Shown here one piece after another: positions 3,731 to 61,274 of a stretch of DNA of 64,000 bases (positions are counted from its first letter, which is position 1; each line of letters opens with the position of its first letter). The notes under the pieces were generated by a model. The model did not search any database. It was not told the DNA's origin and saw only the letters and a list, made by a program, of their open reading frames with translations. The position numbers were made by a program, and so were the translations under genes. Location: contig WIXG01000087.1 in assembly GCA_009869945.1 (NCBI GenBank), forward strand, positions 1 through 64,000. The letters are read 5' to 3'. This DNA comes from Mesaphorura yosii (taxonomy: Eukaryota > Arthropoda > Collembola > Poduromorpha > Tullbergiidae).

Positions 3731-5464
3731 TCACACTTGATGATTAATTAAATTCTCCAACAATTCAATCTCCTTCGTCATAAACTCCACCAGTAGCTTT
3801 TTGTGCTCTGGGTGTGGGCAAATCGTCTTGTCCAATCCAATTATGAGACTGATCATCCCGTTGTAGCTGATTGAAGACATTCCAAAACCTGTGAAAGTTA
3901 AAATACGGTGAGCTAGGGTCCAAGAGAGAGTTCGTGTTTCTGTTTAGTAAACGCGACTCACTTAAACTTCCACGCATCAATCCGCCTCCAAAGTTCAATT
4001 CACTGCAACACAAACATTTAGAGTTCATGAATAAATTAAATTACTCAAACACATTCACTATTCCTTTCTTACTGCAGTTTTCTGTTAAAGAAATCCACTG
4101 GACTGTCCGGTCCCGGGAAATTTGTCATCACGGCGGTGCCAATGATATTGACTGCCAGAATCTTGACCATCCACGAGAAGAGTCCTCCACCGATTTGCTG
4201 AACAATTGAAGCGGTCCAGGGAACGGTGGACAGTTTGAGTGCCTTGAGGTCCTTCTCAATTTTGTACAGCCTCGTCACTGGGTCCGAGATTCCAAGCGGG
4301 AGCTCGGTGAAGCAGCAAGTCCTAAGACGAGAACAAAAAACTGAGGTAGGGCAATCCTCTGCAATGGAAATTTGGCAATGGGAGAAGGAAACGAACCATT
4401 TCTTACATGAAATTCCGCAGTTTATCCGGATGTCCAGGCAGTGGCAGAGGAGTAAGACAGTGCAGTTTGTCTGGGACTCTGACTTTGTTGTAAATCATGT
4501 AATTTCTGACGGTGCCACTGAATATCTCCAGAATCACACTCGTCAGCGAGACCCCATAGTGCGCCTTGATCTCTTTGAGACGCTGCAATGGCACAACAGG
4601 ATGGTAGCCGGTGGTTAAACTTCGTTTTAGTCTGCCTGCAGGCACATGCCACTCATTAGCATCCCACGATTCAATTACGGTCTTGACAAATTCGTAGGGG
4701 ATTCTGAAAGCAAATGTGATCCTGTCGACTGCAATTGTCCAGGCTGATTTCTTCACGCGAACCGGCACTGGCCTTGCGATTCCAAACGGGGCGTCGGTCG
4801 AGCTTGTCAAGACTTCCAGCACCGAGTAGCCATCAGCCATTGCATGGTGGCAACGGAATACAACGGCTGACAAGCTGTAGTCTTCTTTTCGTCCAAAAGG
4901 TTTATAATTCCTGATGATGTGAAAATCCCACGGACTTCTACCCTTAACGTATTTCTTCTCAATCAGTATAGTGTTGTACTCCAGCATTGTGTCTTCGGTT
5001 ATTGGCTCGTCGGATGGAAGGTCCGCGAAAACAACGTGTTCGTCCAAGTTAAAGTTCGCCTCGTCCTTCCAAAAGTAGAATCCCATCCACTTGGTGAAGT
5101 ACTGCTTCATTTCCCTGTGCACGAGTTCGCCAGTTTTGGGGCTTATTTTGTCTAGAATTCGGCGCACGAGAACTTCCTTGAAGTGTTCGCGTTCCAGGTC
5201 ACCTTCCACTACAAGCACAACGATGAGTGTGCACAGTGGCCTTTTGTAGAGGTCGTCTACGGCAAAAATTGTCGACCGAGTTGACAGCATTTTGCCGAGC
5301 TCGGGTTTGAAGCGTTTCACGTACTCGGCCACCAGTCGCCTGAATATGAAGGTAGGGACCAGCGTAAGGAAGAAGGGAGGAAAGAAGATGGTGAACAAGA
5401 TGGCCAGAATTACGTACACGACCTCAGACACGGCGTTGACAATGATTTTGACTAGGCGATGCAT
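3731..5464 (-). CDS. WSD-type wax ester synthase / diacylglycerol O-acyltransferase
   Basis: Acyl-CoA-dependent O-acyltransferase that would make wax esters or triacylglycerol at a membrane. Four exons in phase: 5464-4407, 4321-4073, 4002-3962, 3888-3731, giving 501 residues, a normal WSD length. Residues about 7-40 form a strongly hydrophobic membrane segment. The condensation-type active site HHAMADG (residues 206-212) matches HHxxxDG. The C-terminal half continues with the family-like PLGISDP segment in exon 2 and a DUF1298-like end with DKTICPHPEH in exon 4. I chose the ATG at 5464, not the longer open frame, which lacks an ATG; -3 is G. The gene lies between an ALDH3 gene and murA, all on the same strand but about 1.4 kb apart, so not an operon. 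WSD enzymes are known from bacteria and plants and are also annotated in some invertebrates; the exact substrate cannot be read. Confidence 0.9.
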
Positions 5465-6938
5465 AGCTGCGACTGATTTTTGCTTGTGAATCAAGTCTTA
5501 TGCTGATGACTTTGTGATCTGTTTCCAGATCTGCGTTCTAACCTTAAGTATCTTCTTGCCTCCGTTTATCGGCCTAAGGAATTTTCGGCGCTATTTCTGT
5601 TGCAGATGCACATTCTAGGCTGAAATCGTTTTGTTTATACTTCCAGCTTAGAAGTTTGAAGACTACACTCGATTTTGATCGCTAAAAATTCGTGTTTCGA
5701 GTCCAAAGAACGAATGCAGCGATAAAACTGAAGTATGATTTTCTTAAACTCGGCCAACATATACGACTACGACTTGAAATTGAGGAAGAGCTTCCGGGTG
5801 CACGTACGAAACGACATACATACTGCGCATCTCTAAATGTTATTGTTATTGTCTACACATAAAAAGTAAAGAGCATTTAATCACTCGTTCCCATCCGAGC
5901 CCGATAGCGTTGTGGTTTTTGCGAGAGAAATTCCCATTAATACGAAAGGAGAGCGAAAAGTGCAAATGCGAATGATGAAACATCGACGTGAATGAGAAAT
6001 TGTGAGTGAATGGGCTAATTAGGAGAACGATGCAAGCCATGCTCATCATATTTTGTACAATATCAAGAAATCGTTGCAGTACGACGTCATTTCCGGAAGT
6101 TGAGTTGAGATTGAGACAATGCCTAAAACACAAGCGAACAGACAATGCAAAGTCTTCCCTTAAACGATGTCGCAGAATTTCGCGTGCATTTTTATGACTG
6201 CGCTGTGTGTGAGGAAAAATTTGATAAAAATGCGGTAGAAATGCGAAACGATCCCTCATTAAGAATGAATTAGGAATCTGGGCTAAATTCACGTTGAGTG
6301 TAGAGTGCATGAATAATGAACGAAGATGAAAAATACACAAAATTGTTTACACGAATTCACAAATCGAGAAATGTGGGCACAATGCATTTTTTCTCCAATG
6401 CACTCACAACCTGAAAATGCAAATCGAGTATGGCATAATATAATATTTGTGGCATGTGGACTCTCGTGAACCTGTGAGGTAGGTTAACGCATGAAGATTA
6501 ACCGCGGCTGATAAATGGAAGGATGGAAAGCATAAAAGCAAGTGAACCAACCACCCACTTACATGTCCAATTACATTTTATGGCTCTCCGTGAGAAAACA
6601 TTGCGGATGGTGACGATAATGATTTTACATTTTATGATGCATTCACATTTATTGAGAGAAAGAACGATGTGAATTTCCTAACCTAAAAATTAACTCGTGC
6701 TTGATTTGTTGACTTAATAGGCTCGAGTCCAATTTCGTTCATGAATGAAATTCATGACGCACTTGTGCTTGACGAATTGTGCGAAGTAGCTATTTATCAA
6801 TTAACACAGAATTAAATGGATTCAAGAATCAATTTTGTGGCTCCTTTCTTTCATAAGGCAATAAAACAATTAACTTTATCAACGCTTTAAGTCTAATATC
6901 GAAAGCGGACAGTAATGGGCTTCAGAGGGCACAGCTGG
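5465..6938. other. Intergenic stretch upstream of WSD and downstream of murA
   Basis: AT-rich. A 164-codon open frame at 5846-6340 (-) has no recognisable domain and no signal peptide, and I do not call it. Otherwise nothing supported. Confidence 0.4.
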
Positions 6939-8390
6939 TTAAGGCAAAATTTCTACTTTTGCTCCACAGGCTTTTAGCTTGACGTCCATGCGCTCGTACC
7001 CACGAAGTAAGTGCTGAAAGTCTTCAATAACGGTTTCGCCACGAGCTCCTAGGCCAGCTAGCACCAACGCGGCGGCACCACGGAGATCGTGCGCCTTGAC
7101 GGTACCTCCATGCAGCCCTTTCGGAGACCCATATATAATTACTGAGGACGCGGAGGTTGATTCTTGGCACAGTCCGACTATGTTGGGAATTTTATCACCG
7201 ACGTGGTGTTCGATTTCGTATGACACCATTGTCTCTTGCCCACGCCTGCTGAGAAACTCGATGTCAGCTCCAAGCTTTTGCAGTTCTTCCACATGCTGGA
7301 AACGATTCTCAAACACATTCTCCTGCACTATTGACGTTGGTGTAAGGAAACCGTGCTGACTGGACTGAGAATCAAGTCCAGTGAAGCAGAGCAAAGCACA
7401 GAATTGTGACTGCAGATCAGTTGGAAATTTTGGAAACGGATTTGTTGATATCCAAACGGGTCGAATTGGGTCATCCGCCTTTCGGCTTACAATCACTGAG
7501 CTCGAGCTTCGGTCTCTGCGAAATGTAATTTTACCTCCCACCTGCACAAGTTTCTTAATGATGGCCGTGCCCAAATGTTTCCGTTCAACTCCAACTAATT
7601 CAAGAGCTCCAGCCGTTGCGATCACAAATGTGGCGTACGTTGCTGCTTCGATTCGGTCGGGTATGAGCTTGTAGTGATTGCAACCGTGCAGACGGTTAAC
7701 TCCATAAATAGTCAGTTTCCTGGTTCCAACCCCGTGAATTCTGGCTCCTAACTTCACTAGAAACTTTGTCAGACATAGCACATCGGGGTCAATTGACGCG
7801 TTCTTGATGATTGTGGTTCCTTCCGCTAACGTTGCGGCCATCAAAATGTTTTCGGTTGCACCGACACTTGGCGTTGTAAGTTTGATAATTGCACCGTTCA
7901 GCCTTCGACTTGAGTTCCCGACGAACACTTCAACGCTGCAATCATTCTCGTGCTCGATGATTTTGGCTCCCATCTTTCTAAACGCATCTAAATGGAGATC
8001 GACACTTCTTTGGCCAATATTACAACCGCCAGGCAGTCCGATTGTCACTGATCCAAATCGTGCCAGCAACGGCCCAAGCAATAGAAAAGAAGCTCGTAGC
8101 TTGTTGCAAAGTTTCTGGCACGGTGTAGCATTCTGGATTGAGTCACACTGAATCGTCAATGTATGATTAGCGAGCTGACCGGATCGGGGATTAAAATTAA
8201 CGTTCGCACCTAATTGTTCTAGTAATTTGATTAAAATCACGACGTCGTCAATATTTGGGATGTTAACCAGTCGAATTTCTTCGGATGTTAGCAGCGACGC
8301 AGCGAGAATGGGCAGAGCACTGTTCTTAGAGCCATTGATCTCCACTCTTCCGGCCAGTTGAGAGTCTGATCCAAGTATTACGATCTTCAT
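6939..8390 (-). CDS. murA: UDP-N-acetylglucosamine 1-carboxyvinyltransferase (MurA), intronless
   Basis: MurA transfers enolpyruvate from PEP to UDP-GlcNAc, the first committed step of bacterial peptidoglycan synthesis. One uninterrupted 483-residue frame. Residues matching the E. coli catalytic set are all present: Lys22-Asn23 in GSKNSALPI, Cys123 in LPGGCNIG (E. coli Cys115), Arg128 (Arg120), Asp325 in FPTDLQSQF (Asp305), Arg437 in DLRGAA (Arg371) and Arg463 in LLRGYER (Arg397). The two EPSP-synthase-like lobes are recognisable. It is longer than the usual ~420 residues because of two insertions, at about residues 338-352 and 383-428. The ATG at 8390 has A at -3. No introns are seen, unlike its multi-exon neighbours WSD (4 exons) and CDA (8 exons), so the likely origin is bacterial transfer into an animal chromosome. 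Its physiological role here is unknown; Cys at position 123 predicts fosfomycin sensitivity. Confidence 0.95.
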   Translation of the reverse strand: MKIVILGSDSQLAGRVEINGSKNSALPILAASLLTSEEIRLVNIPNIDDVVILIKLLEQLGANVNFNPRSGQLANHTLTIQCDSIQNATPCQKLCNKLRASFLLLGPLLARFGSVTIGLPGGCNIGQRSVDLHLDAFRKMGAKIIEHENDCSVEVFVGNSSRRLNGAIIKLTTPSVGATENILMAATLAEGTTIIKNASIDPDVLCLTKFLVKLGARIHGVGTRKLTIYGVNRLHGCNHYKLIPDRIEAATYATFVIATAGALELVGVERKHLGTAIIKKLVQVGGKITFRRDRSSSSVIVSRKADDPIRPVWISTNPFPKFPTDLQSQFCALLCFTGLDSQSSQHGFLTPTSIVQENVFENRFQHVEELQKLGADIEFLSRRGQETMVSYEIEHHVGDKIPNIVGLCQESTSASSVIIYGSPKGLHGGTVKAHDLRGAAALVLAGLGARGETVIEDFQHLLRGYERMDVKLKACGAKVEILP

Positions 8391-9373: not shown

Positions 9374-11612
9374 TTAGAAAGAAGATCCGTCACCAGTTGG
9401 ATCCAAAATCCATGGATAATGTCTTGGGCATTCCATGCACGTGAAAAGACGCAGCGTTTCTCCAGGAAGTTCCCGAGTCGTGAGTGGACACGCGTTTGGC
9501 AACGAGCAGTATGGTTGCCCTTTAACATCGCATTTCTCTTTCCATTCTTGGAAATCTCTCAGTGCCGTTAGCTCCGTTGGATTTTGCATCCATTGCACAA
9601 CCTGAGACGCAGAGATGAAGCTTCACTCTTGCTTGATTTTAAATGGGTTCATTGTTTTACATTGGCGACTTACCTGCAACATCGTCACAAAATAAACGTC
9701 GTTCCGCGCGAGCATTTCATCAATGAATTTTCCAAGCTCTTCTCTGAATTCACGCTTCGATTTAAGCCATGACGCGTGGAAGTGCAATCCCAGCGGAGCT
9801 CGATTGGTGGACAGATGACGGTTGAAATTGTGGCGAAGGAGACGGCCAAACTGTTCTCCAGTAGCGATATTCGAACATGAAGACACCATGTGGCAACCGG
9901 GCAGCGACTCGTCGAAGGTAGGGTCATCACGGCGATCCAACTCGTTCATGGCAAGCTCCCAGACTGGGTGCGACCGAGACGGGCAGTTTTGCGCATTTCC
10001 GTGGCACTTGTGTGGCATGCGAAAGTAGAGCGTGTATGGCCAGACGGGGACACGGCCGAGTGGTGCTGTGATTGACGCGTCGTAAACGAAGAACTGGGGA
10101 ATAATCATATCATTCGAATTAGAGTTCAATCACTAATCAAATCACCGGACCAATCATCAAAACTATTGATTTGATTTGAGATTGGGTTACCTGATCTGCC
10201 ATCATTTCAAATTGCTTATTTCCACCCACTCTCAAGTAAGGCGCACGCACACCAATCACACTGCCGTCAGTAATATTTGCGAATCTAGAATAAAAGCCAC
10301 ACATGCATCAAGTTAATGTTTGTCCGAGTGGGTGAGATTGTGTTACCTCTCAATAATGAGCCTATTTCCAGCCATTTCAGCCAGCCAGTCATCATACGTG
10401 CCATCAGTCCAATATTCTGGGGAGTCTTTGTTCGTAATTGAGAAACTGCCTATTTCATGACCTTGACGGTGAAGTTCCTGAATTACACACATTTTCCTAT
10501 TCAAAACCTCTCAGGAAAAACCGTAAGAGAAAACCTTTTGTTCATAATTGTATTAAAGCTTGAATTCTGTCATACCTGAACGGCCGAATAGTTTGTGTAC
10601 TTGTGCGACGCGAAAAACGTTCCCTTAATTTGGCATCCATTTGGATTTTGGCGTGCACCATTAAAGATATCAGCGTAGAGATCAACGTTGTCAACGTTCA
10701 CAGCACCATTGAACGTGATTGTTATCATTTGTGGAACCTACACGAGAAAGAAGTTGATTTACTGTCACATTTTTTCAATCACTACTCTGGCGAAGGCATG
10801 GTACGAGAAAGTTCGAGCGTCTTACAGTATTTGGTTCGAGTGCTCCTGGAATCCGAGTACCGTCGGCAGAGCAGAAGCAATCCGGGAGAACGCATTGGGT
10901 CGGATCACATTCAGGAGCTCGGTTCGGATCAGTTTCCACAGCTAGAAACAAAAGTACAGCTTTAATCCTACTACTAGGGTTCAACTATACAAATATTCAA
11001 TATCTGACGTTAAACTATAGGTTTTAAGAATTGTGTTGTGAAAGATTAATTGGCACTCACTGCATGCATTCTCATCCGATCCATCCTGGCAATCTGACTT
11101 GTCATCGCAAAATAATGCTTTGTCGATGCATTCGCCATTTCCGCACTGCAACTTTCCATCCGCGCACACTGGCTCGTCAGTTACCAAATTCGGGAGGACT
11201 TTGCGTGGCTCTACAGTGGTCAAAGTCAAAAATGCAATCATTGAAGTCAAACGTTCGCTGTCTGTGCTGGCGAATTGCCCATTGCGAATCGGTACTTACT
11301 TTCCAGCTTGTCACAGTTGTTCACGCGTCCTTTCCAGTCGCACGTTTGCTTTGTGATGTCGAACGCAAGGCCGTTGGGGCACTTGACACCAGCCAGACGA
11401 ATTGTGCCCGTGAGTCCAGCGCGGTCACAGCGCACGACATCTCGACAGTCGCCTTCCGTTGTCAGCCTGAAGTATTCTTCCTCAGGACGGTCTTTGCAGA
11501 GCTTCTCAATTTGTGCGGCATTTGGTTTCAAGGTGTCGTCAACTGCGTGGGTCAGCGTTGAGGAAAGTGCGACGAAGAGGACGGTATTGAGGGCAAGTCG
11601 GTACTTCCCCAT
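9374..11612 (-). CDS. Chitin deacetylase, arthropod group I (CBM14-LDLa-CE4); active-site residues substituted
   Basis: Secreted cuticle and tracheal chitin-modifying protein. Eight coding exons in phase: 11612-11300, 11210-11061, 10941-10826, 10737-10576, 10477-10347, 10284-10191, 10093-9674, 9601-9374; 537 residues, the usual length. Signal peptide about 1-23; CBM14 chitin-binding domain with six Cys (39, 56, 62, 78, 91, 100); LDLa domain with six Cys (120-154); then the polysaccharide deacetylase domain from about 195. Motif 1 reads TFNGA (residues 201-205) where CE4 enzymes have TFDD, and motif 2 reads FSITN (259-263) where they have HSxxH. The catalytic Asp, the metal-binding Asp and both metal-binding His are therefore replaced. 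Motif 3 (RAPYLR, 304-309) and the late LHFH motif (425-428) remain. It is likely a weakly active or inactive chitin-binding organiser; the serpentine/vermiform-type family assignment is firm, the exact orthologue is not. Confidence 0.95.
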
Positions 11613-11621
11613 TTTGAAGTT

Positions 11622-28990: not shown

Positions 28991-31349
28991 ATGGCCAGCG
29001 TAGCAGCAGAAGCTGCTGTTTTGAATGTGACCTTCGTCTCTCTCCCGAATGAGGTGTGCTTAACGATGCTGGCTTTACTTCGATGATAACAAGCCGTAAG
29101 CCAATGACTCCATTCCTCGCGACTGTCATTATCCTCCACAGGTACTGGACAAAATCTTGAGCGAACTGGACAACACTGCTTTGGGGTACTTCTCACTCAT
29201 CAACAAGTACTGGTACAACTATGTTCATTCCAAAATTGGATTCAACGTGTACATTGGGAAAAATCGACCGGCACCTTTTTACAACGATCCGCGTAAGCGG
29301 GGCTCGGTGAAAGTTCTGACCAAGTACGGAATCAAGACCTGCACCGTTGGCAATGCGAAGAAAGTCAAGAAGTTTCCGGAGCTCAAGTACCCTCACCTCC
29401 TGCAGTCAGTCACATTCCATGGGAGGATGACGATTACAAAACTGCGCACGTTCCTCACACCTGCTTCAGCTCAGAATCTCAACACTGTCATCTTCTCGCA
29501 ATACTCGCTCTTGAACGCGGAAATGAAAGAACGCAACGTTCATCTTGATTTCCCGAATCTCAAGACGTTCATGATCAGTGGTCAGCCATCGAATTTGAAT
29601 GGTGCGTTTGTGTGGCATGGACAACCGAAGCGTGAGAAAGACAACATGATCCTCAATATTCAGCATTTGTTGTACAATGTGGAGGCTCCACGTGTCAAGG
29701 AACTTGTGCTCCAGTCGCTGCAACTGCTCAGTACCGTGCAAGAGGACCTTATCATCAAGAGTTTGTGGGACTTTGTTGTTCATCACAAGGGCACATTGGA
29801 GAAGTTGTCAATTGGAATTCTCAGCCAGATCCACATGTACCAAGTATGGACGTACCCGAAGCGTTCAGACATGAATCTACTGAAACTCAAGACTGACATC
29901 GACGGTCTGAAACTGCGTTCTTTCTTCATGAGAAATGAGCGTTTTACTGCTGAACCGTCCCGTCCAGGTCCGATGTATTTTCGCCTCATTTTGGAGGCAT
30001 GCAAGAGTGAAGCCGACGCCGGGTGCCTCGCACACCTTGTCTGGCTTTCTTCACGATACTACGAGGCATTGGGACAAAATCACTTGTCAACTCTGCTGGT
30101 CAAGCATCAGAAGACTCTTTTTTCAATTGAGGTCACAATTCCGGCAAACAATCCAGATATTTCGTGCTCTCTCTTCCAAAATTGCGCATCGCTGAAGACC
30201 CTCACACTGATTCGCAAATACGACTTGAAGTACGAGGCAGAGTCCGACGCTGACTCAGATTCTGATGACGATGAACACGAGTTGCTTCGCCTCAAACTAA
30301 TTCCATCTTATCTCAGCACAGCAAATCCTGAACAACAGACAAAGCTGACTGATATTCATCTACTTCCGGCAGGCATCAATGAGTTACGAATTCAGGGCCT
30401 GAAAGTTCGGACTGCAGACGCAGAGTTTGGAAACTTTGCTGCTTTAAACAAGCTGGAGCTGCAAAACATTGGAAAGAAAGCCGCGTTTGGTCTCACACTG
30501 AACTCACTTTTTGATCTGCTGGAAGCAAAGCGTATCGACTTGATTTACTTCAAAGGCGCACTGAATGAAGACAGTTTCGCTGGTGTTGGCCGATTTTTAC
30601 AATTTACATACAAGACAGGCGATGAAAATGGGACGCTCTTGAAGTTGAACGAAGAAGATGGATACTCGCTGCAGCGCGTTTATTGTCCGGTAGATGATCT
30701 GGTTCCTGCAGTGGGCTACCCGATGTACAGTTTTCACGACAGCTGTTGCAATTACTTCAAGAATATCAACCAACCATTTCCCGGATCGTCAGTCGAGTTC
30801 CGCGAGCTAGTCTTTGAGTCGTACAACAACGGATGGAGCAATCTGGACCAAGTTGAGTTTGATGCTCAAATCGAGGAAGCCAACGAGATTGAAATAGCAC
30901 TTGCAACTAACCAAGGCATCGACGAAGAGGATTTGTTAGTACACGACGAATCCGGTACAGTGCCCACGCAGAGTGACGGTGAGGACGAGGCTGACAATGA
31001 AGAAGACGCAGCAGAAAGTGAAGACGAGGAGATCGTCCTCGAAGTTGAAGTTGCCAATTCAGACGACGACTATGAGGACTTCGCTCTTGAAGTGGAGGTC
31101 GCCAATTCAGTCGACGACGAGGACTTTGTCGTCGCACCAGAGGTTGCCAATGCATACGAAGAAGAGGATCTCGTCTTGGAGGAGGAGATGATCAATTCAG
31201 ATTATGAGGACGAGGAGTTGGAGATGATTGTCGACGACAGTGACACGGAACAAGAGCAAAATGAAAATTCAGATAATGATGATGATGGAAATGAGAGCGA
31301 TGCGGACGCGGAGGACACAGCGCAGGAGCAAGATACGGATGATGATTAA
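28991..31349 (+). CDS. F-box protein with a long acidic C-terminal tail
   Basis: Probable substrate receptor of an SCF ubiquitin ligase. Two exons in phase: 28991-29053 and 29142-31349; 756 residues. The F-box (about residues 15-53) spans the intron: VSLPNEVLDKILSEL, then LINKYWYNYV, matching LPxEVLxxI and the later K-W pair. Residues about 60-600 have recurring leucine-rich segments (for example LKTLTLIRKYD) but no repeat clear enough to name. The last ~150 residues are dominated by Asp and Glu and contain four imperfect copies of a short unit (see 31047-31200). The codons in the first exon end in LPNE exactly at the GTGTGC donor, which keeps the F-box intact. It is not a recognised orthologue of a named F-box gene; the SCF role is inferred from the domain alone. 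Confidence 0.75.
31047..31200 (+). repeat. Imperfect tandem repeat coding for the acidic tail
   Basis: GTTGCCAATTCA (31050), GTCGCCAATTCA (31098), GTTGCCAATGCA (31143) and ATGATCAATTCA (31188) recur at 48, 45 and 45 bp, each followed by Asp/Glu codons. At protein level the unit is E-V-A-N-S plus an acidic run. Confidence 0.7.
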
Positions 31350-51268: not shown

Positions 51269-51357
51269 GGAGGACGTGGACAAAGAACTCTTGTTATTCT
51301 TACCTGTTGGATTGATGTCATAACCTTCACCGTCAACATAAACATCAAGTCTCAATC

Positions 51358-52719
51358 ATGACGAATACGAAGGTTTCGCTGAAAAATAAAGGGAATCCCT
51401 CATCATCATCGACCTTGCGCGTTGGCCAGAACAATCGCTCAAGCACCACTATGTTGACTCCGCAGCAGACGGTTTCGATCACAAGTTCCGTCCCACACCA
51501 TATATCACTGCATGCTGTCAACATTGAAGACGAATTCGATATTGTCAAGACCTTGGCGGAAGGTTGTTTCGCGAAGCTCATTCTTGTGAAGAAAGGCGCA
51601 GACAAAATGGTCCTGAAAGCAATTCACGCGGAGGTGAGCACGGAGGCCGATTTTCGCCGTGAACTCAATTACAATTACTTTCTCAGTCCGCATCCAAATG
51701 TCGTCACATCATACAATGTGTCTTTCTTGTGGGACAATTGCTACGTTTTTGTACAAGAGTACGCTCCATTTGGCGACTTGAGTCGATTCGTGAAGAAAGG
51801 CGGGCTGCCGACGGAGCAGGTGAAACTCATCGCGTCGCAACTCAGCAACGCCCTGGATTTCATGCATGGACTTCATCTCGTTCACCGTGACCTGAAACTG
51901 GAGAACATTCTGGTATTCAAGACGAATTTCTCAGTCATCAAGCTGTGCGACTTCGGATACACGTTCGCTGAGGGTAGCCTCGTCACAAAAACCAATCAAA
52001 CATGGATTCCGTTTTCTCCGCCTGAAATATGCCAGGTTGTACTCCAGGAGAAATACTATTGCCATTCATCGTCCGACGTCTGGCAGGTGGGCATTATCAT
52101 CTACGTTTGTCTGACTGGAGAAGAGCCATGGTCCATTGCAGATATCACAGACGCCAACTTCTGTCAGTACACGGACTGGCTGAGGAGGAGGTCGCTGCGG
52201 ATGCCCGAATCGTTCTCCGCATTCACGCCGCGGTTCATTCGCCTCATGAAGCGGCTCCTCGAGCCAAAACCCACCAAGCGGTACGAAGTTCGAGAAGTCA
52301 TGAAATACCTGAATGACAAGTGGATTCGGAATAGCCAAAGCAGATCTTGCAGCTTGGCGACAGACCAGAATGGCCACTTGTCGCTGTTGCTGGATCGAAA
52401 GGAGTCCATGAACACATCGCACAGCAGCCACCGGCAGAACAAGTCAACAACACCCAACATGCTGACCGAGAACGACTCGTCTGTGAACGGAAACGGACTG
52501 CTGCATCCTCACCTGAACCGCTCATCACCGAATAACCGAAGCAGCCGCACCAATAAGTCGAACAAGTCCCCGAACCGGCACACGAGGTCGAGGTCGTGTC
52601 GCAAATCGTTGAAAGTGTACGGGATCGAGACGGAAATCGATAAGAATCTCATTTCTGAAAGGGTGTTTAACTGGATTTCGAATAACAATAATTCTAGTCC
52701 TAACAGGAGTGAAGAGTAA
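51358..52719 (+). CDS. SBK-like serine/threonine kinase A
   Basis: SH3-binding-kinase (SBK1) type protein kinase, 453 residues in one coding exon. Kinase domain about 58-323: Lys87 (VLK, the VAIK lysine), HRDLKLEN at 176-183 with Asp178 and Lys180, DFG at 198-200, the PPE motif at 221-223, and DVW at 240-242. The segments FVQEYAPFGDLSRF and DFMHGLHLVHRD are SBK hallmarks. The Gly loop reads A-E-G-C-F-A, missing two of three glycines. The C-terminal ~125 residues are Ser/Asn/Arg-rich and probably disordered. The ATG has A at -3. A paralogue (kinase B) lies 7 kb away in convergent orientation. Confidence 0.88.
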   Translation: MTNTKVSLKNKGNPSSSSTLRVGQNNRSSTTMLTPQQTVSITSSVPHHISLHAVNIEDEFDIVKTLAEGCFAKLILVKKGADKMVLKAIHAEVSTEADFRRELNYNYFLSPHPNVVTSYNVSFLWDNCYVFVQEYAPFGDLSRFVKKGGLPTEQVKLIASQLSNALDFMHGLHLVHRDLKLENILVFKTNFSVIKLCDFGYTFAEGSLVTKTNQTWIPFSPPEICQVVLQEKYYCHSSSDVWQVGIIIYVCLTGEEPWSIADITDANFCQYTDWLRRRSLRMPESFSAFTPRFIRLMKRLLEPKPTKRYEVREVMKYLNDKWIRNSQSRSCSLATDQNGHLSLLLDRKESMNTSHSSHRQNKSTTPNMLTENDSSVNGNGLLHPHLNRSSPNNRSSRTNKSNKSPNRHTRSRSCRKSLKVYGIETEIDKNLISERVFNWISNNNNSSPNRSEE

Positions 52720-59744: not shown

Positions 59745-61274
59745 TTAAAGTTCGTGCTGTGACGAGACAATAATTGAATTTCGACCCGTGCTTGAATTCT
59801 TTCGCAGCATGGAGTCTGTTTTCAGTGGTGCCGAGGTTCCCGAGGTCGAGAGTTCATAGCTGGTGCACCGTCTCATCGCGTACCCATTGCGTCTTGGTTT
59901 GCTAGGAGCCGTTGCTGGTGAAATGTCCCGAAACGTGTGTGTCCGGCGGCACTGCTCCACTCCTTTCAACGACTTGGCTCTTGTGTGTCGTGCGTTGGTG
60001 ATTGTCTGTTGCTGTTGCGGTCCGAGGATAAGTTTTGTGGACAGAATTGGTACTGAGTCTGTGGATCTGTCGGTCATGTTCGTAGTGATGGACGCCGATG
60101 CTGGCGAAATGGACCTTCTTTTTATGTAGATGCTCGTATTTTCGGCGGAATTTGTACTTGCTGACGACTCCTTCCGATTTCCGCTTCGTCCAGTATGCAC
60201 AGATGTATTTGATGGACATTTCTTGCAGCCTCCGGCAATGATACATTGTTTCTCGATCCAGCTGTCCTTCATGTACTTGAAGACTTCACGAATCGGACAT
60301 CGCTTGCTTGGTTTGGGTTCCAGCATTCGTTTCATCAGCCTCACGAATCGTGGTGTGAATGCTTTGAGTGACTCCGGCATTCGCAGGGATTTCCTCTTGA
60401 GCCAGTCGATGTATTGGGAGAACCCTGCGTCGGTGATGTCGGCCACGGCCCAAGGCGAGATGCCATTAAGCAGTGTGAGGGCGCAGATGCCAAGCTGCCA
60501 CACATCGGATGACGACGATGAGTAATACTTCTCTTGTGGAATGATGTCACAGATTTCTGGTGGGAACGTATTTTCTGTGACGTGGCCGGAGCTCACTCTT
60601 CGAACCTGTAGCATGTTGACGGGTTGTGTGCTTCCGAAATCACACAGTTTGACGAGAGATAAGTCTTGCTTGAAAACCAGAATGTTTTCAAGTAGGACGT
60701 CACCGTGCACCAGATGGATTCCATGCATGAAGTCCAGTGCCGACCCGACCTGCTGCATGACGGCTTTCGCCTGTGACTCAGCGACGGTCGAGCCAGTGTA
60801 GGACGGCGAGAAATGTTTAGAAGCGATGAAACGACTCAAGTCACCAAACGCTGCGTACTCTTGGACAAAGATGTACGAGTTCTTCCATTCGAATGAGACG
60901 TTGTACGATGTGACAATGTTTGGGTGTGGACTGAGAAAGTAATTGTAGTTCAACTCACGCTGAAACTCGTCCCATGTCGTTTGCTTGGCTTGAAATACTT
61001 TCAGAACCATCTTCTCGCCGTCCTTCTTGCCCAGAATGACCTTTCCAAACGTGTTCTTGGCGAGGGTTCGAATCAAATTGAATTCTGACTTGATGTCCAG
61101 CTCCTTGTGGTGAGTACTGCTGCTATTGCCTTTGGTGCATTGGCTGGATTCGTCCTGAGTGATTTTCGCCATTAGTACATCGTTGTCCGATGGCTTCGCC
61201 AACGGAGGTGGAGATGGTGGAGGCGAAGAATCAAGTAGCTCCTGCCTCGACTCTGTATCCATTTGCAGCTTCAT
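59745..61274 (-). CDS. SBK-like kinase B with altered catalytic loop
   Basis: Paralogue of kinase A: 509 residues, one coding exon, ATG at 61274. The N-terminal ~55 residues are Pro/Ser-rich (SPPPSPPP). Kinase domain about 63-340: VLK Lys92, FVQEYAAFGDLSRF, HGDVLLEN at 190-197, DFG at 212-214, PPE at 238-240, DVW at 257-259. Compared with kinase A, HRD has become HGD and the following Lys is Leu194, though the base Asp192 and the DFG Asp212 remain. The Gly loop is A-K-N-T-F-G. It may be weakly active or a pseudokinase. The C-terminal ~165 residues are Ser/Thr/Arg-rich. A leader intron (61400-61302) precedes the start. Confidence 0.88.
   Translation of the reverse strand: MKLQMDTESRQELLDSSPPPSPPPLAKPSDNDVLMAKITQDESSQCTKGNSSSTHHKELDIKSEFNLIRTLAKNTFGKVILGKKDGEKMVLKVFQAKQTTWDEFQRELNYNYFLSPHPNIVTSYNVSFEWKNSYIFVQEYAAFGDLSRFIASKHFSPSYTGSTVAESQAKAVMQQVGSALDFMHGIHLVHGDVLLENILVFKQDLSLVKLCDFGSTQPVNMLQVRRVSSGHVTENTFPPEICDIIPQEKYYSSSSSDVWQLGICALTLLNGISPWAVADITDAGFSQYIDWLKRKSLRMPESLKAFTPRFVRLMKRMLEPKPSKRCPIREVFKYMKDSWIEKQCIIAGGCKKCPSNTSVHTGRSGNRKESSASTNSAENTSIYIKRRSISPASASITTNMTDRSTDSVPILSTKLILGPQQQQTITNARHTRAKSLKGVEQCRRTHTFRDISPATAPSKPRRNGYAMRRCTSYELSTSGTSAPLKTDSMLRKNSSTGRNSIIVSSQHEL

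Follow-up and report, generated by a model that had tools for sequence, protein, structure and literature searches.

Seven mur and ddl genes of probable alphaproteobacterial origin resident in the genome of the springtail Mesaphorura yosii

Peptidoglycan is a hallmark of bacteria. We found seven genes of its precursor synthesis, murA, murB, murC, murD, murE, murF and ddl, spread over six contigs in the genome of the springtail Mesaphorura yosii. The gene set, its integration into the host genome, the murC intron, the host-like codons, the conserved catalytic positions and the alphaproteobacterial affinity within our panel were observed directly. Taking the whole analysis together, we consider it probable that the genes were domesticated from Alphaproteobacteria and most likely supply a bacterium living inside host cells, much as in the mealybug Planococcus citri.

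The murA gene and its surroundings

The window, that is the whole stretch of 64,000 nucleotides that was analysed, has a GC content of about 43% and is the start of a contig of 247,256 bp (C87). A preliminary description made from the letters of the window had reported an intact murA of 483 codons, and this was borne out. The ATG-started frame scored 422.4 bits against the MurA equivalog TIGR01072 in the NCBIfam profile search (curated cut-off 392.7), passed the Pfam EPSP_synthase cut-off with 254 bits, and matched 37 distinct sequences of solved structures, with MurA on top. It was the single match in a profile search of the genome's contigs (93,006,257 bases in 1,127 contigs, which may be incomplete). 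When the window was shuffled 20 times by mononucleotides, the longest frame free of stops reached 118-174 aa, versus 483 aa for murA.

Alignment with E. coli MurA showed identity at 10 of 10 positions that we take to be catalytic or ligand-binding in that enzyme (including Lys22, Cys115, Arg120, Asp305, Arg371 and Arg397). In E. coli and animal numbering, respectively, R91 corresponds to R99, C115 to C123, R120 to R128, D305 to D325, R331 to R363, D369 to D435, R371 to R437 and R397 to R463, with K22 and N23 unchanged in number. All six catalytic residues named earlier (Lys22, Cys123, Arg128, Asp325, Arg437 and Arg463) are among these ten. Of the columns invariant in 80 bacterial relatives, 54 of 58 were kept; the four missing ones map to animal residues 199-206, and insertions at about 338-349 and 380-412 fall in columns occupied in fewer than 20% of the bacteria. 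By its sequence the murA product is MurA, with enolpyruvyl transfer to UDP-GlcNAc as the predicted reaction.

The neighbours of murA (Table 1) have a make-up of WS/DGAT, chitin deacetylase and CBM14 domains that is presumably arthropod-like. The CBM14 exon is assigned to the chitin deacetylase gene. The top-scoring solved relative of the deacetylase exon was the chitin deacetylase 5zns, at 225.6 bits, and a Pfam scan of this exon gave no match. Because the deacetylase gene holds a 72-bp GT-AG intron, spliced host sequence adjoins murA. The earlier statement that murA sits between multi-exon eukaryotic genes, and not on a contaminant contig, agrees, as far as the deacetylase gene goes, with this intron and with the 247-kb contig; its bacterial origin, its residence in an animal chromosome and functional constraint on it were likewise supported.

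Table 1. Positions of the mur and ddl genes and of features around murA.
Feature	Position	Strand	Evidence or remark
murA, intronless, 483 aa	window 6939..8390	-	ATG-started frame; MurA equivalog with checked catalytic positions kept
AATAAA, possible polyadenylation signal	window 6648..6653	-	285 nt past murA stop; motif only, chance possible
WS/DGAT acyltransferase-domain frame, host neighbour	window 4403..5494	-	Pfam 33.7 bits, cut-off 23.6
Chitin deacetylase exon, host neighbour, upstream of its splice donor, in 9623-10129 frame	window 9674..10129	-	Solved relative 5zns
Chitin deacetylase intron, 72 bp, GT-AG	window 9602..9673	-	Joins next exon in frame
CBM14 (peritrophin-A) domain frame, host neighbour	window 11247..11621	-	Pfam
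murB	contig C2, locus L082, about 786970		NCBIfam NF010480 329.6 bits, cut-off 259
ddl	contig C2, locus L087, about 872870		NF002378 261.2 bits, cut-off 243; TIGR01205 211.8, below 245.65
murC	contig C49, locus L086		Two exons scored apart: TIGR01082 120.7 and 251.0 bits; whole-protein cut-off 335.1
murC exon 1	L086:1046-1430
murC intron, 74 bp, GT-AG	L086:1431-1504		Inside P-loop motif
murC exon 2	L086:1505-2799
murD	contig C331, locus L085		TIGR01087 304.6 bits, cut-off 211.95
murE	contig C1, locus L084		TIGR01085 351.8 bits, cut-off 257.3
murF	contig C439, locus L083		TIGR01143 276.6 bits, just below cut-off 288.6

The other six pathway genes

Among the uses suggested for MurA in the preliminary description was that it acts with other transferred mur genes, and a search of the same genome for murB-F was proposed. 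This search found one MurB, four Mur ligases (MurC, MurD, MurE and MurF) and two ATP-grasp ligases, one of which is a clear Ddl. The option of joint action was thereby supported, for ddl as well as for murB-F. However, the argument that MurA must be kept for some other purpose, since animals lack the pathway, found no support here: the same genome carries the next six steps. The solved relatives of MurB, MurC, MurD, MurE, MurF and Ddl were the expected enzymes. Spliced murC encodes 559 aa, and the exon junction restores GTHGKTT. MurE carries a DNPR motif, which we take to be a mark of mDAP-adding MurE enzymes.

The genes murB and ddl share a contig, about 86 kb apart, and are neighbours in many bacterial dcw clusters; their common contig could be a remnant of an operon-like insertion or a coincidence.

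The second ATP-grasp frame (L088, G000:C551:18806-22414, positions 1135-2178, + strand) showed a weak likeness to D-Ala-D-Ala ligase, with 42.5 bits in Pfam and 52.8 bits against TIGR01205, far below the cut-off. Judged from these scores it probably lies outside the pathway.

Conservation of the seven proteins

Over the seven proteins, 230 of 247 invariant bacterial columns were kept: 49 of 53 in MurA (81 rows, E. coli included), 13 of 13 in MurB (35 rows), 43 of 50 in MurC (25), 29 of 29 in MurD (19), 46 of 48 in MurE (15), 22 of 24 in MurF (17) and 28 of 30 in Ddl (23). Alignment rows shorter than 75% of the E. coli length were left out (two for MurD and one for MurF). MurC, which loses seven invariant columns, differs from its bacterial counterparts where the aligned solved protein reads VYQPHRY. 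The catalytic Ser229 of MurB is replaced by Cys, which is also found in 2 of 35 bacterial MurBs.

All seven coding sequences are open throughout, with no internal stop, while their products share 35-47% identity with the closest bacteria of the panel. When murA was simulated under neutral change, 0 of 500 copies were still open with 20% of sites hit, and 9 of 500 with 10%. We regard it as very nearly certain that the pathway is present and was constrained in the past.

MurB has a hydrophobic stretch at residues 20-38 (mean hydropathy 2.83), before the start of the bacterial matches listed. The other six proteins have no N-terminal hydrophobic stretch of this strength, and from their inferred starts no signal peptide was evident in them. 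Because start codons were inferred, further 5' exons are possible.

Integration into the host genome

Pooled codon usage of the seven genes correlated with that of 12 long host frames (RSCU r = 0.77), a reference set that was chosen by hand and includes frames not proven to be genes. A Neoehrlichia murA gave r = -0.36 against the host. Third-position GC tended to track the local contig, with 0.64 for murB and 0.71 for ddl on the GC-richer C2, and 0.45 for murD on the AT-richer C331. The murC intron measures 74 bp, versus 72 bp for the host intron in the chitin deacetylase gene.

Pfam named a myosin tail beside murB, PP2C and Med25 beside ddl, a V-ATPase subunit beside murD, and Ufd2 and a cytidine deaminase beside murC; 9 of the 19 flanking frames scanned were without a match, including the four scanned beside murE and murF. 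We compared 896 bacterial frames, taken from the surroundings of murB and from E. coli, with 245 kb of host sequence; none matched at E 1e-8 outside the mur genes themselves, and no other dcw-cluster homologue was seen in these flanks. A single operon-like insertion was rejected because the flanks examined held no further homologue of this cluster. By their flanks, the murC intron and their codon usage, we take the seven genes to be true host genes.

A few kb from murD, a frame with a pRiA4b ORF-3-like domain scored 74 bits (L099, G000:C331:10500-20499, frame 2395-2760, + strand). It is possibly another gene of bacterial origin.

Bacterial origin

A phylogeny of MurA against bacteria, another check proposed earlier, was built with the top 80 among 577 confirmed relatives. 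The top match by E-value, among the matches listed from GTDB contigs, was Candidatus Neoehrlichia lotoris at 42% identity; a locus further down the list (L014) reached 43%. The animal MurA paired with Neoehrlichia in the 81-row tree (support 98/89), where a branch of 1.91 drew a long-branch warning, and in a 49-row tree (99/89). With Neoehrlichia removed, the animal row joined four alphaproteobacterial rows (98/81). Neoehrlichia was rejected as the MurA donor: the pairing is supported, but both branches are long and the grouping shifts without it. In the same tree, three metagenome bins all titled 'Rickettsia typhi' (L009, L020 and L024) scattered, and because they sit at different places these titles look wrong.

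MurB was matched in 36 of the 38 genomes for which MurA loci were used (38 of the 80). The best match, at 53% identity, was a Holosporales bin, which was sister to the animal MurB in a quick tree of 34 of 35 loci and E. coli (SH-aLRT 94). The 35 bacterial neighbourhoods yielded 34 MurB, 24 MurC, 20 MurD, 14 MurE, 17 MurF and 22 Ddl sequences; the trees of MurC-F and Ddl were quick and weakly resolved.

All seven proteins had their highest scores with Alphaproteobacteria, within a panel skewed by its selection on likeness to MurA. The best bit scores for Alphaproteobacteria, other panel bacteria and E. coli were 346, 318 and 265 for MurA (the second being the best of ten listed loci), 292, 158 and 82 for MurB, 301, 235 and 171 for MurC, 281, 160 and 151 for MurD, 275, 195 and 160 for MurE, 256, 143 and 127 for MurF, and 222, 103 and 117 for Ddl. 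Because the panel was picked through MurA, is without Bacteroidota and has one gammaproteobacterium, we treat a single donor as a hypothesis.

Later steps, substrates and a bacterial partner

Family searches of the genome gave no candidate PBP transpeptidase (control matched in 10 of 14 genomes) and no match to the alanine racemase C-domain (control 8 of 14), DAP epimerase (9 of 14) or Asp/Glu racemase (10 of 14). The searches ran exon by exon and the controls miss some bacteria, so that these families are likely, but not certainly, absent. For the MraY/DPAGT1 family there were two weak, split, exon-like matches (39.6 and 27.4 bits), which are probably host DPAGT1. Bacterial 16S was without a match in the genome among the 5 of 1,031 candidates scored (control 9 of 14 genomes).

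With no PBP, racemase or DAP epimerase match, the pathway would need mDAP and D-amino acids from outside, and what it makes would pass out of the metabolism of the host itself. Chlamydiae are without MurI, and GlyA is thought to provide their D-Ala; here, too, D-Ala might come from an enzyme of the host. The need for mDAP points to bacteria.

Possible explanations of the gene set

We propose an ancient acquisition of murA-F and ddl by the animal lineage, with one or several Alphaproteobacteria as donors, and that the seven enzymes would together convert UDP-GlcNAc to UDP-MurNAc-pentapeptide in host cells, the end of the soluble pathway as outlined in the source cited (PMC7154730). In the searches for PBP transpeptidase and the MraY/DPAGT1 family, nothing that clearly carries this product further was found in the animal genome. 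The precursor, or the Mur enzymes themselves, would then most likely go to an intracellular bacterium that has lost these genes and keeps the membrane steps, as with P. citri. Against this reading count the missing 16S match (5 of 1,031 candidates scored), the missing dapF match, the lack of an evident signal peptide in six of the seven proteins, where P. citri MurF has one, the seven invariant columns lost in MurC and the Cys in place of MurB Ser229. Expression, activity, product and bacterial partner are what we infer here. A more specific form, which we put forward tentatively and hold to be somewhat doubtful, is that this is a second independent animal lineage in command of all soluble steps of peptidoglycan synthesis. 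The genes would derive from one ancient alphaproteobacterial donor of Rickettsiales/Holosporales type and lie across chromosomes; murC would have gained its intron and MurB would be anchored in a membrane. They would serve an undiscovered host-dependent intracellular bacterium, or a descendant of organelle-like kind, with its wall under the control of the host.

It is also conceivable, though unlikely, that the animal employs UDP-MurNAc-peptides itself, with no dependent bacterium, as an immune signal, as a decoy or in managing gut or soil bacteria. The missing 16S match, with its weak control, is in keeping with this, as are the single transferred murA or ddl genes of ants, for which antibacterial roles are proposed in the part of the source cited (PMC13320244). 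However, it would be expensive to retain seven steps just to make a soluble immune effector, and no source of mDAP, D-Glu or D-Ala was found in the genome. We give a clearly smaller chance to the genes being relicts of a pathway that once served a now-vanished symbiont and that have yet to decay. The same 16S result and the several missing MurC columns would fit such decay, but the seven open frames at their low identity to bacteria and the murA simulation at 20% of sites argue against it.

Recruitment of MurA alone to host UDP-GlcNAc or chitin metabolism is very improbable: the chitin deacetylase gene adjoins murA, but the genome also encodes the next six steps. The tie to the deacetylase that the preliminary description thought worth testing was not supported, as that gene looks like an ordinary host gene and the neighbours of the other mur genes, where Pfam named them, have no common theme. 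Contamination or mis-assembly, the least probable explanation, was rejected on the six contigs, the host-like codon usage, the murC intron and the flanks without other dcw-cluster homologues.

Comparison with known systems

The P. citri genome is much larger than the 93 Mb examined here, and more AT-rich than the window with its GC content of about 43%. According to the portions of the literature cited, it carries murA-F and ddlB alongside the symbionts Moranella and Tremblaya (PMC5664097, PMC12176269, PMC9116674), as well as dapF, lysA, amiD and mltB (PMC5664097). The soluble steps are described as lost from both symbionts, and host MurF, which has a signal peptide, as present in the Moranella cytoplasm (PMC12176269); PMC7154730 describes the division of labour in different terms. 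In both animals, as far as these accounts go, the identical seven genes lie in the nuclear genome and end at the soluble precursor.

Set against the same accounts, the springtail differs in several respects. For P. citri the partner, the complementary genes and MurF import are documented, whereas here no partner was seen in the 16S search. DAP epimerase was without a match here (control 9 of 14 genomes), murC has an intron, MurB has the hydrophobic N-terminal stretch, and no signal peptide was evident in six of seven proteins from inferred starts. The sources given for the 22 transfers in P. citri span several groups of bacteria, whereas all seven genes here look alphaproteobacterial within a limited panel. 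Because the companion dapF was not found, we claim likeness to the mealybug system for the gene set, and not a proven place in that kind of symbiosis. If one donor for all seven genes, membrane binding of MurB and a new partner were confirmed, the case would depart from the known mealybug kind.

Other transfers resemble this one in part, again going by the portions cited. Among ants, whose genomes also hold bacterial murA or ddl, Pheidole pallidula has a Wolbachia-derived murA and three Formicoxenini have ddl2 (PMC13320244); unlike here, each is a lone gene for which a close match in a named bacterium is given, and that account reports no pathway. Plants and moss likewise have nuclear genes for peptidoglycan precursors (PMC9434261, PMC12176269), but theirs build a wall around plastids, whereas here no PBP transpeptidase was matched (control 10 of 14 genomes). 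The ldcA, amiD and rlpA genes that aphids received from bacteria (PMC9116674) also have peptidoglycan as their target in an animal, but they recycle or remodel it, in contrast to precursor synthesis here. Within the open-access PMC literature covered, the full seven-gene animal set is reported only for mealybugs, and single transfers for ants.

As the sole animal with the full soluble pathway in the literature covered, mealybugs serve as a model for the change from symbiont to organelle. If another animal shares these seven genes, an isolated case becomes a route that evolution can repeat, in which the soluble half passes to the host and the membrane half stays with the partner. The present result also means that a lone transferred mur gene should be interpreted only after the rest of the genome has been searched.

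Other frames in the window

Two long single-frame genes in the window, at 51316-52719 (+) and 59745-61274 (-), resemble related protein kinases and are presumably SBK-like. A further single frame of 749 aa, at 29100-31349 (+), has a start that we take to be F-box-like and a very acidic C-terminal tail.
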